This document shows, one piece after another, positions 1 through 17,893 of a stretch of 24,123 nt of DNA. Location of the stretch: positions 1 through 24,123 of IMG/VR virus record IMGVR_UViG_3300025120_000537. One strand, 5' to 3'. The notes beneath the pieces are model-generated. The model ran no database searches, was not told the DNA's origin, and worked only from the letters and a program-made list of their open reading frames with translations. Within the stretch, counting starts at the first letter, position 1; every line of letters starts with the position of its first letter. The stretch is from a virus. The position numbers were made by a program, and so were the translations under genes.

Positions 1-1365
1 TTTAACTCCGTTTAAATATACATCTATAAACCCTGCGTCATACGCCAAAGTTTTTGAATTTGTATCTGAACCAGTAAATGTTGTCTGATTTGCTGTTGCA
101 GTATATTCAAATCTATTTGATGTACCGTTAACAGTTGAACCTGCCGCAGCCCATCCACTTGATTTGTAAACTTTTAATTCGTTTGCACTTGTGTCAAAAT
201 ATAAATCACCAACATCGTTACTGCTTGTTGGGGCTGAACTTAAAATTCTATATCTTTCTGCAAAACTGTTTACTCCAGAAATATTAGAAGCAACTGTAGA
301 AACATTTGCGTTTGCGCCTGCTACTGTTGACACTGCACTAGAAATTCCTGCTACAGTATTTATGTTTGCACTGTTAGAATTTACAGCATTAATATTTGAT
401 GAATTATTATTTACAGACGTAAGCGTACTTGAAAGTCCTGCTACGGTGTTAATGTTTGAAGCGTTAGAAACTGCTGAGTTGATGTTTGTAGCGTTACTAA
501 CTGCTGAATTAATGTTACTTGAATTATTTGCTACAGCCGTAACGTTGCTAGAAATTCCTGCTACTGTTGATACGTTTGCAGAAATACCTGCCACCGTTGT
601 AACGTTAGCACTTATCCCACCAACAATATTTACGTTAGCTATGTTAGTTGCAACTGTATCTATTTCAGATGTAGTTTCATTTAAATCATCAGCTACAGTC
701 TCAACTTCTGATACGGCTTCTGCTAAATCATTTGCTACTGCAATTACTTTTGCAATGTCTGTTGCTACTGTGTTAACTGAAGTTATGTTTGTTGCTACCG
801 TGTTGATATTTGTAGCGTTAGAATTAGTTGTAGTTATTGCAGATATATTACTGTTAACTGTGTTAATTGCTGTAATGTTACTGTTAACATTATTTAAAGT
901 TGTTTTGTCTGAAGCACTTAGCCAAGTGTTTTCGATGTAGTTTTTCGTAGCCACATCTTGTGCAGACGTTGGGTCAGCAATAGTAGTTAATCTTTTACTT
1001 TGTCCATCCCATTGAAAATTTGTATTTGATAGTTTGATTACATCGTTAGCGTCATCAATAGCTTCTTGTCCCATAAAGAAAGCTTGGTTAGAATCAGTAT
1101 CTAAATCATTTTCTGTTAGGACTGAACCTGCCGCATAATCAACTAATCTTGAAGTTTGACTTGTAGTTCTTCGTATTTCAATAGCACTTGCCGAAGCCGG
1201 TGCTGTGTTAAAAGTAATTTGAGTTCCTGCTGAGTTATAAGTGAAAGCAGTTGTAGCTACACCATTAATTGTTACAGTAATGTCAGCCTGGTCACGATAT
1301 GTAAAATTTACTGCATATTGTGTGGTTGAACCATTTCCTGTGTATCTTACAAATGAATTAGCCAT
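1..1365 (-). CDS. Tail fiber protein, T7 gp17-like, N-terminal 455 residues (cut by the left edge)
   Basis: The frame is open from an ATG at 1365 to position 1 without a stop, and AAGGAG lies 8 nt upstream of the ATG. Residues 1-150 resemble the virion-anchoring N-terminal domain of T7 gp17: an opening MANSFVRYTGNGSTTQY, a TINGV strand, a LTENDLDTDSNQAFF segment and a PTSAQDVATKNYIE segment. Residues 161-360 are twenty decapeptide repeats rich in Asn, Ser, Ile and Val, probably a trimeric shaft. Residues 371-405 hold a DVGDLYFDTSANELKVYK motif seen in many phage fibers. Residues 417 onward start a module (FEYTATANQTTF, DVYLNGVK) that also recurs in marine phage fibers. The receptor-binding tip lies outside the window. 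The gene follows the gp16 genes, as in T7. Family assignment is firm for the N-terminus; the shaft structure is inferred. Confidence 0.9.
   Translation of the reverse strand, partial: MANSFVRYTGNGSTTQYAVNFTYRDQADITVTINGVATTAFTYNSAGTQITFNTAPASASAIEIRRTTSQTSRLVDYAAGSVLTENDLDTDSNQAFFMGQEAIDDANDVIKLSNTNFQWDGQSKRLTTIADPTSAQDVATKNYIENTWLSASDKTTLNNVNSNITAINTVNSNISAITTTNSNATNINTVATNITSVNTVATDIAKVIAVANDLAEAVSEVETVADDLNETTSEIDTVATNIANVNIVGGISANVTTVAGISANVSTVAGISSNVTAVANNSSNINSAVSNATNINSAVSNASNINTVAGLSSTLTSVNNNSSNINAVNSNSANINTVAGISSAVSTVAGANANVSTVASNISGVNSFAERYRILSSAPTSSNDVGDLYFDTSANELKVYKSSGWAAAGSTVNGTSNRFEYTATANQTTFTGSDTNSKTLAYDAGFIDVYLNGVK
286..885 (-). repeat. Decapeptide repeat region of the tail fiber shaft (30-bp period)
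   Basis: Twenty consecutive ten-residue blocks span fiber residues 161-360. Typical blocks are NSNITAINTV, ISANVTTVAG, NASNINTVAG and ISSAVSTVAG. Hydrophobic Ile or Val recurs at fixed positions, with Asn, Ser or Thr between. Blocks at about residues 211-250 are acidic and more diverged (ANDLAEAVSE, VETVADDLNE) and look closer to a heptad coiled coil. The same periodicity keeps the complementary strand open, giving a spurious 249-codon plus-strand frame rich in ATV. Confidence 0.85.
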
Positions 1366-1383: not shown

Positions 1384-1400
1384 CTTCTAATATGGGTACT
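1384..1400 (-). promoter_or_regulatory. Candidate phage RNA polymerase promoter, copy 1
   Basis: On the minus strand the sequence AGTACCCATATTAGAAG lies in the 40-bp spacer between the second gp16 gene and the tail fiber start. The identical 17 bp occurs at 16925-16941, again in a spacer ahead of a late gene. Its TATTAGAAG end resembles the start region of the SP6 promoter (TATAGAAG), which is known from the literature. A promoter role is inferred. Only the last few bases could be explained by ribosome binding. Confidence 0.45.
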
Positions 1401-1405
1401 TATTG

Positions 1406-5952: not shown

Positions 5953-8225
5953 TTATTAACCTTTATCTGTTCATTTAATAATAATTTCTTTTGATTAGCT
6001 GCATTTTCTAATATGATTTTCATATCTTTATCTGCTTTCATCATATCTTCAATTGAGCCATCCATAAAATCTCCAGTCGATACAATTACAAAATCTCCGT
6101 TTGGTGTCATAACTGGTAATTGAGAATTTTTATCTGTTAAAACTAATAGTCCACTTTTAAAAGGACGTACTACTAAATCTTCTGCGTAATATTTTAAATC
6201 ACCTTTTCTATCTTCTACTAAAGGTATGTCACCTTCGTTAAAGAAACCATCAAGTTTGCCTGCTTCTTTATATTTTTCCATCCAAACAATTTCAAATTTC
6301 TTAGCTATTGCTCTGCTTTTTTCTGTAAGTTTTGTTGGGTCTGCGGCAGGGAAAGATGAATTATTAACAAGAACACCATCTACTAAAGTGTGTCTAGTAG
6401 ACACTTCTTCAATAGCAAATTTAATTGCGTCTTCTTTATTCATTCCTGCTTTCATCATTGTCATAGCAGTCATAGTTGCTCTTTGTGAAACCAAAGACAT
6501 ATCAACATCATCCCAATCAAATGTAGGGTAATCTCTTGTAATAGATTTAACCCAGTCTGGTAAATCTTCTTTATTAACTCCAACAACTCCACCTATCCAA
6601 GGTATACCTTCATCAAACCATTTATCAAATTTACCTTTAACATCATCATAGACATCTTCTTTGTTTAAATTTGTGTTTGCATATTGTGAAGCAGGATTAG
6701 TTACAGCTTCATAAGCTTTCATAATTGCTCTGTCTTGTCCCATGTTTGTATTTCTCATAAGATTATTTACAATTTCATAGAACGTTGCTGCGTTTGTACT
6801 AGCGTATTTAGTAGGAACTTTATCACCGTAAATTGTTCTTAATTGTTGATATCTTTCAAATCCTCTTGTAAAAATATCAATACCATCAGGGTCAATTGTA
6901 CTGTCATTACCTGCAACTTTAATTACATTAATAGAATCAAATCCCATTGTAACTTCATTTTTCCAAGTAGGATGTTGTATTCCATTAGCGTCTAGCATTT
7001 TTTGTGTTAATTGAAATTTTGTAAATTCACCTAAATCTTTTGGTATATCACCATTAGCAATCATGTTGTTAATGTGTGGCATTAATATTGTTTGTTCCCA
7101 AGCTACTATAGAGTCATTTATATCATCATCTGATAAACCAATTTTAGTATTACCACTTGAGTCTGTGTAAGTAGTTTCATCTTTTTTATAAGCATGACCT
7201 TTAGAAATTAAATCTACGCCAATTGCTAGTTTACTTGATGTTGCTACTGTACCTTTAATTGCAGCAATAATTTTTGTTGCTTGTTCTTCTGTTTTGGGAG
7301 TTCTTAAATAAGAAGGCAGTTTACCATCTTTACCTCTGTTCATTGTAAGATATGTAACAATATCAGTTAACATTTGAGGGTCAGTAATTAAACCAGTATC
7401 TTGTAAATCAACTACTTGTTCAAAATAATTTAATACTTGTTTATTCCATTCATCTTTATTTATAAATTTTTCATTAACAACTTTGTCAGTTCTTAAAGTT
7501 TCTAAATCTGCTACTCTTGTAGAAGAATTATATATTTTTTCTGTTGTATAGTCTGGTGTTCCTGCGTCTATTTCTTTTTCTGTTATAAAGCCACCACCTT
7601 GTTCCCAAGCTTTAGCAATAATTTGAAAAGAAGCTGCGTTTGTTGCTCTGTTTAATTGTAAACCTTTTGCTATTGATACTTTTTCTTCTAAGTCTAATCT
7701 CATTTGGTTCATAGAGTCTGTGTATGCTCTAGTGTAAGATTTATCTTGTGTACTTAAATCTCTTATAGGATTTCCTGTAGGCTCACCATTTTCATTAACT
7801 GATTGAAATAAGCCATCTATATCTAGATTAGCCATTGCGTCACCTTTATCATCACCACCAGTTATATTTGTAACTTTAGTATTAATATTATTAAAATCTT
7901 CAATAGCGTGTGATAAACCAAAATTAGAATTTACAATTGCTTGAGTGTAATAACCTTTTAAGTTTGCAACTCTAGGGTCACCCTTATCAATTAACTTTTT
8001 AATTTCTGTTGGGTCTGTAATACCTTGTGCTTTTAAATTATCAAAAACATCTTGTGCTTCATTTTGTTGTTCTGTTTTGTAATTGTCAGTAAACTTGGCA
8101 AAAGATTTATTAAAGTTTTTTAGCGAATTTGAAATTTGATTTAGTTCACTATCTTTTGCTTCTCTAGGTCTACCTGTAGAAGTTGATTGATAACGAATAG
8201 GTACGTATTGTGATTTATATGCCAT
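5949..8225 (-). CDS. Internal virion protein, T7 gp15-like
   Basis: At 758 residues the protein nearly equals T7 gp15 (747), and it sits exactly between the gp14-like and gp16-like genes. It is hydrophilic and mainly helical, with no signal peptide or clear membrane segment. Early segments such as GDPRVANLKGYYTQAIVNSN resemble the opening of gp15-type core proteins. In T7, gp15 forms part of the internal core and then a periplasmic DNA-ejection conduit with gp14 and gp16. AAAGGA lies 6 nt before the ATG. The function rests on synteny and length more than on residue-level motifs. Confidence 0.75.
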   Translation of the reverse strand: MAYKSQYVPIRYQSTSTGRPREAKDSELNQISNSLKNFNKSFAKFTDNYKTEQQNEAQDVFDNLKAQGITDPTEIKKLIDKGDPRVANLKGYYTQAIVNSNFGLSHAIEDFNNINTKVTNITGGDDKGDAMANLDIDGLFQSVNENGEPTGNPIRDLSTQDKSYTRAYTDSMNQMRLDLEEKVSIAKGLQLNRATNAASFQIIAKAWEQGGGFITEKEIDAGTPDYTTEKIYNSSTRVADLETLRTDKVVNEKFINKDEWNKQVLNYFEQVVDLQDTGLITDPQMLTDIVTYLTMNRGKDGKLPSYLRTPKTEEQATKIIAAIKGTVATSSKLAIGVDLISKGHAYKKDETTYTDSSGNTKIGLSDDDINDSIVAWEQTILMPHINNMIANGDIPKDLGEFTKFQLTQKMLDANGIQHPTWKNEVTMGFDSINVIKVAGNDSTIDPDGIDIFTRGFERYQQLRTIYGDKVPTKYASTNAATFYEIVNNLMRNTNMGQDRAIMKAYEAVTNPASQYANTNLNKEDVYDDVKGKFDKWFDEGIPWIGGVVGVNKEDLPDWVKSITRDYPTFDWDDVDMSLVSQRATMTAMTMMKAGMNKEDAIKFAIEEVSTRHTLVDGVLVNNSSFPAADPTKLTEKSRAIAKKFEIVWMEKYKEAGKLDGFFNEGDIPLVEDRKGDLKYYAEDLVVRPFKSGLLVLTDKNSQLPVMTPNGDFVIVSTGDFMDGSIEDMMKADKDMKIILENAANQKKLLLNEQIKVNK

Positions 8226-12316: not shown

Positions 12317-12337
12317 GATTTTCCTTTTTTAAATTAA

Positions 12338-12369
12338 AGTAGGGGAGTCAGTCTCCCTCATCCCCTACT
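12338..12369 (-). terminator. Probable transcription terminator after the capsid gene
   Basis: A perfect 9-bp inverted repeat (AGTAGGGGA at 12361-12369 in minus-strand reading, TCCCCTACT at 12338-12346) encloses a 14-nt loop. The minus-strand RNA continues TTAATTT, a broken U-rich tail. A competing inner stem GGGAG/CTCCC is also possible. The hairpin lies 31 bp beyond the capsid stop and 22 bp before the gp11-like ATG, matching the place of the T7 T-phi terminator. The interrupted T tract suggests partial termination, so tail genes would still be transcribed. Confidence 0.7.
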
Positions 12370-12399
12370 CCTATATAGTATAAATAAACTTAATAAATA

Positions 12400-13380: not shown

Positions 13381-13523
13381 ATTTGTCTCCTTTTTCTATT
13401 GTTATTGTTTAAAAAGCTTTCACAAGTTTCTAGTTTGTTTCACAAGATTGTCGTTCCTCGGAACGGTCAAGTTAATGGACTTTAACTTTGTGTTAGCAGT
13501 TGCTACCTAAATAGGTAACACAA
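13381..13523 (-). promoter_or_regulatory. Structured 143-bp leader before the capsid gene
   Basis: This is the longest gene-free stretch of the window, and it holds no reading frame of note. In minus-strand order it has three short hairpins: TACCT/AGGTA (13504-13517), AAGTTAA/TTAACTT with a 6-nt loop (13469-13488) and CGTTC/GAACG with a CGAG loop (13452-13465). Two copies of CTTGTGAAA follow, 20 bp apart (13438-13446 and 13418-13426). Last comes the capsid ribosome-binding site. A promoter, RNA-processing site or stabilising leader for the most abundant late transcript is likely, but no recognised consensus was found. Confidence 0.5.
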
Positions 13524-14700: not shown

Positions 14701-16260
14701 TTATCCTCTTGGTTTTGTAACGTTGTCAGCAACTTTAGGTGCAACAGCTTGTGCTGTTTCCATCATTTGTTGTTGTTGCTGCATTTGCATTTGTTGTTCT
14801 TGTTCTGCTTGTAATTGTTCAGGAGACTTAATTAAGTTCTCAGTTTCAATTCCATGTCCTGTTGCAAGTCTTTCAATTAAATCACCTATGTTTAATAATT
14901 GAACTGCTTGAGGATTCATTTGTGCTAACTGTCCTATCTCTCCTACAAACTCTCTTAATTTCTGTAAGTCATTTCCTCTACCTAGTGCTTCAACACCAGT
15001 AATAATAGTTGGTCTTACAGAACCTTTTGGAAGTTTTGGTATTTCGTTTTTACTTCCCATTCTTGTCATAAGAAGAGCGACTAAAGGTAATTGTAATTCT
15101 TGTGATAATAAAGAATAAATTCCACCCATAGCAGTCTCAAGTTCATTAGCCATATATCTAATTTCTTGAGCCGTAACTCTTTCTGCTTGACGTTGAATTG
15201 CTGTGTTAAGTAGGAATGCGTATGCTAATCTTTCTTCAAGTCTGCTAATTGCTTTCTCTACTGTTTGTAAATCATAAAATTTCTCTGCTTGTAATACTGA
15301 TACATCGTCTTTATTTCCAGAAATAATGTCACCATTTCTAGATTTTGCAATGTCCATTTTCTTTGTAGTAGAATTAGGTTTTACTAAGAAAACCATTTTA
15401 GCTGACGCAGCGGCACTTTCTACAAGCGCTTGTGATAATCCTTCTAAAGATTTTAAGTCACCAATTACTTCGTCTACAAAACTTCTTCCATAACTTTCTG
15501 AGTCAACTCTAATCATTCTTAAAGCTAACCATGGAAGTTGGTCTGCGTTATGTTCACCAACAGATGAAGGTATTTTAATTCCTTTTACTTCTTGGCATAC
15601 ATAATATTTTTTATTATTTAGTTTATAAATATGTGTATATAAATCACAATGAGTTTCAGACTGAGCGTTTTCTTTACTCATCATTTGTAAAACTTGTTCT
15701 CTAATTTCTAAGTCTAATCCTAAAACAGATACACTTTCTTTTACAACTATTTCTAATAAGTTTCCCTCACCGTCTCTTTTACATACATACTGATTAAGAG
15801 GAAAAACTCTCATACTGCCTTCTTTAGGCATATGACATAAAACATTTCCACCAACAATTAAATGTTTGATTGCTTCAAATATTGGAACTCTAATTGCAAG
15901 TGACTCAATTTTTCCCATAACGTCACGTTCAATTTTTGCTAATGATTTTTCAATTAACGTTTTTAGTTCTGGTTGTTCTTGCACTTGTTCTTTAGCTTTG
16001 CCTTGTATCGCTAGTCTAAAGAATGGTTGATTTGGGGGGAGTAATAACAGTAAGAGTTTACTGGCTAAATTGTTAACACCTCTACTTCCAACTGATTGGA
16101 AAGGACTATAAAAATCTTGTGAAGGGGCGTGAGAATCTTCTGGAATTAAAGTTGGTATCGTCAATTCTGAACACTGTCTTCCACGGTTTAAAAAGTGTTC
16201 TCTATGTTCCGACAGAGAATTGTATCGGCTTTCTGCCGTGTTGTGTAAATTATCTGCCAT
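14701..16260 (-). CDS. Portal (head-tail connector), T7 gp8-like
   Basis: This 519-residue protein (T7 gp8 has 536) has strong colinear similarity. Shared features are CSELTIPTLIPEDS (about 30-43), FQSVGSRGVNNLASKLLLLL (about 54-73), IFEAIKHLIVGGNVL, RMIRVDSESYGRSFVDEVIG, and ERVTAQEIRYMANELETAMG followed by SLLSQELQLPLV. It forms the dodecameric ring at one vertex for DNA packaging and tail joining. The C-terminus is a Gln/Met-rich low-complexity tail (AEQEQQMQMQQQQQMM). A modest AAGG site precedes the ATG. The scaffold gene starts 6 nt after its stop. Confidence 0.95.
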   Translation of the reverse strand: MADNLHNTAESRYNSLSEHREHFLNRGRQCSELTIPTLIPEDSHAPSQDFYSPFQSVGSRGVNNLASKLLLLLLPPNQPFFRLAIQGKAKEQVQEQPELKTLIEKSLAKIERDVMGKIESLAIRVPIFEAIKHLIVGGNVLCHMPKEGSMRVFPLNQYVCKRDGEGNLLEIVVKESVSVLGLDLEIREQVLQMMSKENAQSETHCDLYTHIYKLNNKKYYVCQEVKGIKIPSSVGEHNADQLPWLALRMIRVDSESYGRSFVDEVIGDLKSLEGLSQALVESAAASAKMVFLVKPNSTTKKMDIAKSRNGDIISGNKDDVSVLQAEKFYDLQTVEKAISRLEERLAYAFLLNTAIQRQAERVTAQEIRYMANELETAMGGIYSLLSQELQLPLVALLMTRMGSKNEIPKLPKGSVRPTIITGVEALGRGNDLQKLREFVGEIGQLAQMNPQAVQLLNIGDLIERLATGHGIETENLIKSPEQLQAEQEQQMQMQQQQQMMETAQAVAPKVADNVTKPRG

Positions 16261-16720: not shown

Positions 16721-16915
16721 CTATCCTAATAAGTTATCTTCGTTACGTTTTTTTAATTCGACTAACCAATTAACCACACTTCTTTGTCCTGCTTTGAACC
16801 AAACTGTACGTTCATCATCTTTCAAATCAGCACTTTTTTCTGGAAAAACTTTGTCTAAAGTTTTAACAAGTTCTTCCACTGTGTATGGTAATTGTATATC
16901 ATCTAAAGGGTTCAT
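16721..16915 (-). CDS. Conserved small podovirus protein (64 aa), function unknown
   Basis: This acidic helical protein contains LPYTVEELVKTLDKVFPE and WFKAGQRSVVNWLVEL. The AGQRSVV.WL pattern is one I associate with small proteins ahead of the portal region in podoviruses. AAGGA lies 7 nt upstream of the ATG. It is the first gene after nrdB and follows the second copy of the 17-bp promoter-like element, so it may head the late head-gene transcript. I have no function to assign. Confidence 0.75.
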   Translation of the reverse strand: MNPLDDIQLPYTVEELVKTLDKVFPEKSADLKDDERTVWFKAGQRSVVNWLVELKKRNEDNLLG

Positions 16916-16924
16916 ATCTTTTTC

Positions 16925-16941
16925 CTTCTAATATGGGTACT
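16925..16941 (-). promoter_or_regulatory. Candidate phage RNA polymerase promoter, copy 2
   Basis: The minus-strand AGTACCCATATTAGAAG is identical over 17 bp to the element at 1384-1400. It fills most of the 27-bp spacer between nrdB and the head-gene cluster. The final AGAAG merges with the ribosome-binding site of the next gene (AGAAGGA), but the AGTACCCATATT part is not explained by translation. If it is a promoter, it would separate nucleotide-metabolism genes from virion genes. Confidence 0.5.
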
Positions 16942-16942
16942 A

Positions 16943-17893
16943 TTAGCCCCACAAATTTCCAGTCATACTACCTTTTGCATATTCAGTAGCACGGTTTTCA
17001 AAGAAATTTGTATGTTCTACGCCATTTAAAACCCAATCAAGCCAAGGCAATGGGTTATCTTTGACAGCAAAATTAGGTTTTAATCCTAATTGTAATAGTC
17101 TTCTGTCGGCTATGTGACGTATATATTGTTTAATTTGATTTGGCTCGATACCTTCTACTCCACCTTGTTCAAAAGCTAGGTCAATAAATTTATCTTCTAA
17201 TGATACCATATCTCTTGCAACATCGTATAAAGTTTTTTTGAAATCATCATTCCAAATATGTTTGTTCTCATCTATTAAAGCATGAAATAATTTTATCATG
17301 TTATCTACGTGATGACTTTCATCTCTTATGGACCAGGTAACTATCTGACACATACCTTTCATTTTTCCAAATCTTTGAAAGTTAAGTAACATTACAAAAG
17401 AAGCAAAAAGCTGCAATCCTTCTCCGAATGCTGAGAACGTTGCAAGTTCTCTAGCCATACCTTCTATACCTTCACCTTTACTTCTAAAAAGATAATCATG
17501 TTTATCAGCCATAGCTTTATATTCTTGGAATGCTTTGTATTCACTATCTGGTAATCCAATAGTATCATTAAGTAGTGAATAAGAATGAGCATGATTAGCT
17601 TCACTTGTTGCTATAGAAGACAACATCATTCTTATTTCTGGTGGTTTAAATTTTGGAATATAATTATCAAGGTACGCTTGAGCAATATCTACATCGCCTT
17701 GCGTAAAGAACTTTAATATTTGGGTAATTAAATTCTTTTCCTTTTCATTTAATCTTTCATTCCAGTCTCTTACATCTTCGGCTAAAGGCACTTCGCTTGG
17801 TAGCCAGTGCATTTTTTGTTGTTGGTCGTAAGCTTCAAAAGCCCATGGGTATTGAAACGGCTTGTAGTGATTTCTTTCTTTTAATAAACTCAT
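16943..17893 (-). CDS. nrdB: Ribonucleotide reductase small (beta, R2) subunit, class I
   Basis: This 316-residue diiron protein makes and holds the tyrosyl radical that NrdA needs to reduce ribonucleotides. All expected ligands are visible: Asp67 (TQGDVD), Glu98 and His101 (SEANHAHSY), Glu158 (FGEGLQ), and Glu192 and His195 (RDESHH). The radical Tyr105 is retained, so this is not a tyrosine-lacking variant. The residue numbers coincide with those of NrdF-type class Ib proteins, but no nrdI or nrdH is seen nearby, so the subclass stays open. The start codon overlaps the stop of the 56-aa gene (ATGA). It would work with NrdA encoded just upstream to supply dNTPs for phage replication. Confidence 0.93.
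   Translation of the reverse strand: MSLLKERNHYKPFQYPWAFEAYDQQQKMHWLPSEVPLAEDVRDWNERLNEKEKNLITQILKFFTQGDVDIAQAYLDNYIPKFKPPEIRMMLSSIATSEANHAHSYSLLNDTIGLPDSEYKAFQEYKAMADKHDYLFRSKGEGIEGMARELATFSAFGEGLQLFASFVMLLNFQRFGKMKGMCQIVTWSIRDESHHVDNMIKLFHALIDENKHIWNDDFKKTLYDVARDMVSLEDKFIDLAFEQGGVEGIEPNQIKQYIRHIADRRLLQLGLKPNFAVKDNPLPWLDWVLNGVEHTNFFENRATEYAKGSMTGNLWG

Follow-up and report, generated by a model that had tools for sequence, protein, structure and literature searches.

A repeated intergenic element in a T7-like pelagiphage fragment and its predicted role as a promoter of the phage's own RNA polymerase

The contacts between the single-subunit RNA polymerase (RNAP) of phage T7 and its promoters have been assigned to single residues, with N748 reading positions -10/-11, R756 reading -9 and Q758 reading -8 (PMC5937735), and a T7 RNAP evolved for use of the T3 promoter carries N748D (PMC4633624). 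The promoter of the cyanophage Syn5 is ATTGGGCACCCGTAA, with G at +1 (PMC3950665). The element described here, from a 24,123-nucleotide stretch of viral DNA (the window), is like the T7 promoter phi2.5 (TAATACGACTCACTATTAGG, annotated +1 = A) in having TAAT at -17 to -14, G at -11, C at -7 and TATTAG at -4 to +2, and one of its copies corresponds in place to phi17, the annotated T7 promoter between genes 16 and 17, in the spacer ahead of the tail fibre gene. It differs from the T7 promoters in having CCC instead of TCA at -8 to -6, and in numbering about five copies per genome, of which one lies directly before the RNAP gene in this pelagiphage group. T3 (D748 with CC at -11/-10) and SP6 (R748 with GT at -11/-10) obey the same residue-748 rule as the pelagiphages, but their promoter cores are different and a great distance separates their RNAPs from those of the pelagiphages. 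Syn5 is likewise a marine T7-like phage with a CCC core, and its loop also aligns with K748/K758; however, its CCC is located at -7 to -5 rather than at -8 to -6, and its promoter is shorter and lacks TATTAG.

The window represents part of the genome of a T7-like pelagiphage, being 95% identical to AP013541 (Sieqvirus S42C7) over 72% of its length and about 79% identical to HTVC120P. The 17-mer AGTACCCATATTAGAAG occurs exactly at 1384-1400 and at 16925-16941, on the minus strand in both cases, and has no other exact copy in the window, as the earlier note had claimed. Since all long open reading frames (ORFs) with phage-gene matches are on the minus strand, both copies are oriented along transcription. 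Both are in spacers: the copy at 1384 lies within 1366-1405, the stretch that separates an internal virion protein ORF from the tail fibre gene, and the copy at 16925 lies within 16916-16942, between NrdB and three small ORFs preceding the portal gene, with its -17 end overlapping the NrdB stop codon. The features concerned are the following.

1..1365, minus strand: tail fibre gene, truncated by the window end and predicted to be read from the promoter at 1384 (ORF list; annotated as tail fiber in AP013541)
1384..1405, minus strand: promoter predicted for the phage RNAP ahead of the tail fibre gene, CAATAAGTACCCATATTAGAAG from -17 to +5, with the exact 17-mer
14701..16260, minus strand: portal (head-to-tail joining) gene, within the predicted head transcript; counterpart annotated in AP013541
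15873..15889, minus strand: three-mismatch look-alike inside the portal gene; same sequence at the same portal position in AP013541
16721..16915, minus strand: small ORF, first gene of the predicted head transcript (ORF list; counterpart annotated in AP013541)
16925..16946, minus strand: promoter predicted for the phage RNAP ahead of the head gene cluster, CTAATAGTACCCATATTAGAAG from -17 to +5, based on the exact 17-mer and RNAP covariation
16943..17893, minus strand: NrdB (ribonucleotide reductase beta), the upstream neighbour, with 99% identity to the NrdB annotated in AP013541 and with a stop codon that overlaps the promoter

The look-alike, AGTTCCAATATTTGAAG at 15873, is the single extra match in the window when up to three mismatches are allowed; it lies inside the portal gene, was treated as a coding coincidence and was rejected as a member of the set. 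Dinucleotide shuffles of the window gave a mean of 0.09 matches at this stringency, and three matches were seen in none of 100 shuffles. In front of the head cluster, the predicted +1 is the A at 16929, placed by the T7 register, followed by a predicted leader of 14 nt (AGAAGGAAAAAGAT) with an AAGGA ribosome site ahead of the ATG at 16915. In front of the tail fibre gene, the predicted +1 is the A at 1388, with a leader of 23 nt and GGAG ahead of the ATG at 1365.

The complete genomes of relatives show a fuller set than the fragment can. Each of six complete genomes (AP013541, HTVC120P, HTVC134P, HTVC309P, AP013545 and Unn) holds exactly five copies of a wider element with the 22-base consensus TAATWRGNNCCCHTATTAGAAS (-17 to +5), in five shared spacers: before RNAP, after RNAP, before the head genes (behind NrdB), before the tail fibre gene and after terminase. 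All copies are intergenic and on the transcribed strand, as those of AP013541 illustrate.

568, coding strand: behind RNAP
10031, coding strand: behind NrdB
25225, coding strand: before the tail fibre gene
33829, coding strand: behind terminase
40382, coding strand: before RNAP

The element was absent from all 300 shuffles of the AP013541 genome, and in HTVC120P the chance of five out of five copies being intergenic and on the plus strand is about 6e-8 under random placement. Letter identity to described promoters is not telling by itself. The earlier note had taken a resemblance to SP6 and Syn5 as evidence; I rejected identity to T7, SP6 or Syn5 as such, as 12-14 matches out of 19 to phi2.5 are common in these AT-rich genomes. 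Two AP013541 copies reach 13/19, a score equalled at about ten places in that genome; comparable identity to a T7 promoter is found at many unrelated places, and the Syn5 CCC stands in another register.

Across the 30 copies in the six genomes, A at -15, G at -11, CCC at -8 to -6, TATT at -4 to -1 and AGAA at +1 to +4 are invariant. Two forms can be discerned. At the virion sites, all 12 copies combine A at -5 with G at +5, against 0 of 18 elsewhere, while at the RNAP and terminase sites all 18 copies show C or T at -5 together with C at +5. Both window copies have the virion form, and this explains why only the exact 17-mer was noticed at first. By synteny, the other three sites of the window phage would lie outside the fragment, as does its RNAP gene, which in the relatives adjoins two further copies. 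The proposal that these are late promoters therefore needs to be restricted: the exact A-5/G+5 form is indeed confined to the two virion sites, but the element family is not purely late, because sister copies flank the RNAP gene and follow terminase. As to position, the element does stand at the border between NrdB and the head genes and at the fibre gene, where transcripts may change as suggested before. In AP013541, a GGGGG stretch comes after the copies at 33829 and 40382 and could pair with the CCCC within them (TACCCC..GGGGTA), a pairing partner that the window copies do not have.

In IMG/VR the 16-base core occurs 105 times: the NrdB spacer accounts for 32 occurrences and the fibre spacer for 60, two stand in tandem behind terminase, and 11 fall in ORFs of unrelated contigs and are taken as chance. 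The tandem pair belongs to one record (L023, 1990-2110), in which 63-bp repeats behind terminase contain two exact element copies alternating with three copies of GTACCCTTATAGAATAG. In all 79 metagenomic NrdB relatives examined, an element is located directly behind the NrdB stop codon, but its core differs by lineage (GGCCCC, GTCCCC, GTTCCC, CTTACAC and CCTGCTC, for example). The complete genomes of other lineages show the same sites, each with its own core.

HTVC109P, 142P, 168P and Eistla: core GTACCC/GTTCCC
HTVC019P, 022P, 304P and 131P: core GTTACAC/CTTACAC
HTVC021P: core GTTTCAC

A scan of HTVC041P (Stopavirus, with a split RNAP gene) with the CCC profile yielded no convincing element set, and matches to GTACACATATTAGC in a small nuclease gene were set aside as coding coincidence. 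A promoter-like element is also found inside the exonuclease coding sequence of HTVC109P (L191:13179), HTVC142P (L194:10104), HTVC168P, Eistla and S35C6 (L195:1242), where it encodes Asn-Val-Pro-Leu-Leu-Asp-Leu-Trp and matches each lineage's own promoter type; in S35C6 a Thr codon replaces Pro, giving a CAC-type element. This may be an intragenic promoter or a coding coincidence.

The complete relatives encode a T7-type RNAP, with PF00940 and PF14700 found in the three scanned and the catalytic residues D537/K631/Y639/D812 conserved in the alignment. For the window phage, the loop was taken from AP013541 (95% identical; RNAP gene broken at the record seam) and from HTVC120P. In AP013541 the RNAP gene lacks annotation and is broken across the ends of the linear record (1-540 and 40440-42399), with a stretch repeated near the seam, probably as a result of an assembly fault. 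An additional 140 IMG/VR RNAP sequences were paired with the element behind them, and every RNAP column was scored against each element position (42 representatives, 736 columns), with K/R/H and D/E grouped; a second scan was made without T7, T3 and SP6 (39 representatives, 608 variable columns). Residue 748 ranked first of the 736 columns for -11/-10, with a score of 0.95 and the next column at 0.62, and residue 758 ranked first for -8 (0.68). Both were still first in the second scan (0.94 and 0.81, respectively), and shuffled labels reached a maximum of 0.45 for -11/-10. When residues were left ungrouped, residue 754, a neighbour of 748 in the loop, took the first place for -11/-10 and 748 the second; 758 kept the first place for -8. 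Residue 758 determines -8 only partly, as Q758 occurs with T or G.

For residue 748, the rule is that an acidic residue goes with CC at -11/-10, a basic one (K/R) with GT, and C or Q with CT. At 748/758/760, HTVC120P has K/K/R with a GTACCC core, HTVC019P has R/A/Q with GTTACAC, and acidic-748 relatives have E/Q/T or D/Q/V with CCTGCNC. Records with an acidic 748 contain CCTGCNCTWTTAG in one to five copies and lack both other promoter types, and non-acidic records show the reverse pattern, barring one stray CTTACAC match. Whole genomes switch promoter type together with residue 748. On an RNAP tree built without the specificity-loop columns, the 748 class changes five times, the -11/-10 pair five times and the two jointly five times, so that all five changes coincide. 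Independent sister pairs agree in four out of four cases, although four pairs are too few to reach 0.05 by themselves.

Because the element cores covary with RNAP residues 748 and 758, which I regard as the decisive evidence, the elements are read as promoters of a single-subunit RNAP. The phage group has such an enzyme, the repeats are about 20 bp long, intergenic and in the same direction, and positions -11 to -8 match the loop residues. The 17-bp element is thus almost certainly a promoter of the phage's own T7-type RNAP, with binding and use inferred from these patterns; the earlier suggestion of a phage RNAP promoter is strongly supported by synteny and covariation alike.

Other functions were considered. 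At 16925, AGAAGGA coincides in part with a Shine-Dalgarno sequence located 7-8 nt ahead of the ATG, as would be the case if the element were a ribosome-binding site common to two highly expressed genes. However, the conserved bases reach to -17, far upstream of any ribosome site, and for the copies before RNAP and behind terminase the spacing to a start codon is not that of a Shine-Dalgarno sequence. Moreover, in phages of the HTVC019P type the element in the NrdB spacer abuts the ATG of the next gene without any Shine-Dalgarno sequence (TTTTAGATG; L190, L193, L370 and similar), which also argues against such a role, as do cores that track RNAP residues. A function in translation is therefore very improbable. 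I consider a sigma-70 promoter of the SAR11 host just as implausible: TATTAG is similar to TATAAT and could be its -10 box, but no sigma-70-like site was found at either window place, and a host promoter would not covary at -11 to -6 with the loop of the phage RNAP.

The location of the copies at module borders could also point to an RNA processing site or to a terminator or attenuator at operon borders, and the GGGGG after the copies before RNAP and behind terminase can pair with their CCCC. Yet the window copies show neither this pairing nor a terminator-like hairpin, and a role in processing or termination would not make the element track residues 748 and 758; there is very little to recommend this reading.

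As a phage RNAP promoter, the element would be read from -11 to -6 by the specificity loop (G, T, A/C, C, C, C in this lineage), with residue 748 reading -11/-10 and residue 758 reading -8, whereupon TATTAG would melt. RNA would most likely start at the A of TATTAG (5'-AGAAG...), as at T7 phi2.5; this A is taken as +1 because the register places 748 and 758 on their known contact positions, while a start at the G, in the register of the T7 class III promoters, is possible. In the HTVC019P-type phages mentioned above, the element running into the ATG predicts a leader of 2 nt, and thus nearly leaderless head-gene mRNAs. The early genes, including RNAP, would presumably be transcribed first by the host, after which the RNAP would fire the promoter ahead of its own gene and then those of the replication, head and fibre genes. 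A promoter directly before the RNAP gene is present in the Sieqvirus/Foussvirus and HTVC109P/142P groups; in HTVC019P, none was found ahead of that gene. The form with C or T at -5 and C at +5 would drive RNAP's own gene and the replication genes, and the A-5/G+5 form, seen in the window, would drive the genes for the head and the tail fibre; the two forms may differ in strength or timing. RNA-seq of HTVC022P, which is of the HTVC019P type (data set PRJNA1253180), showed its genes to fall into three contiguous temporal clusters, RNAP being early (PMC12753301), and these clusters fit the proposed firing order without locating the starts. In the HTVC022P genome (MH598798), the starts predicted from the A of TATTAG/TTTTAG are at 6688, 16504, 31031 and 41906.

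Pelagiphage RNAP promoters are named in no paper that I found among open-access full texts, and the word 'promoter' is absent from a 2025 transcriptome paper on an HTVC019P-type pelagiphage. Phages of this type count among the common ones infecting the most abundant bacteria of the ocean. The T7-type promoter as such is already known, and the interesting part is the repeated natural switching of specificity. It is possible, though I would put it at somewhat less than an even chance, that pelagiphages have repeatedly exchanged their RNAP-promoter 'code' in nature, with at least five coordinated changes of the whole promoter set and 748/758 together, making mutually incompatible transcription groups among close phages; resident prophages or co-infecting relatives, whose RNAP would fire the wrong promoters, could perhaps have driven this. 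The element yields exact predicted transcript starts for dozens of genomes, and a distant natural lineage is seen to obey the 748/758 reading rules of T7, T3 and SP6. Natural evolution has also supplied about ten promoter-polymerase pairs, a test set for the joint change of a polymerase and its dispersed promoters.

Two further features were observed around the capsid gene. Its leader (window 13381-13523, minus strand) is conserved and structured, and had no Rfam match; the window as a whole gave nothing significant in Rfam. In the first hairpin (TTGTG..GCAAC), four of eight pairs show compensatory changes, with 20 cells changed on both sides and a covariation of 0.53 vs. 0.21 in shuffles; the second, in which CTTGACC pairs with GACAATCTTG, also varies in matching pairs. 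The spacer between capsid and tail tube A (12317-12399, minus strand) contains a long GC-rich hairpin, AGTAGGGGA..TCCCCTACT, with a minimum free energy of -19.4 kcal/mol, followed by TTTAATTT; the main terminator of T7 sits in the same place, right behind the capsid gene.
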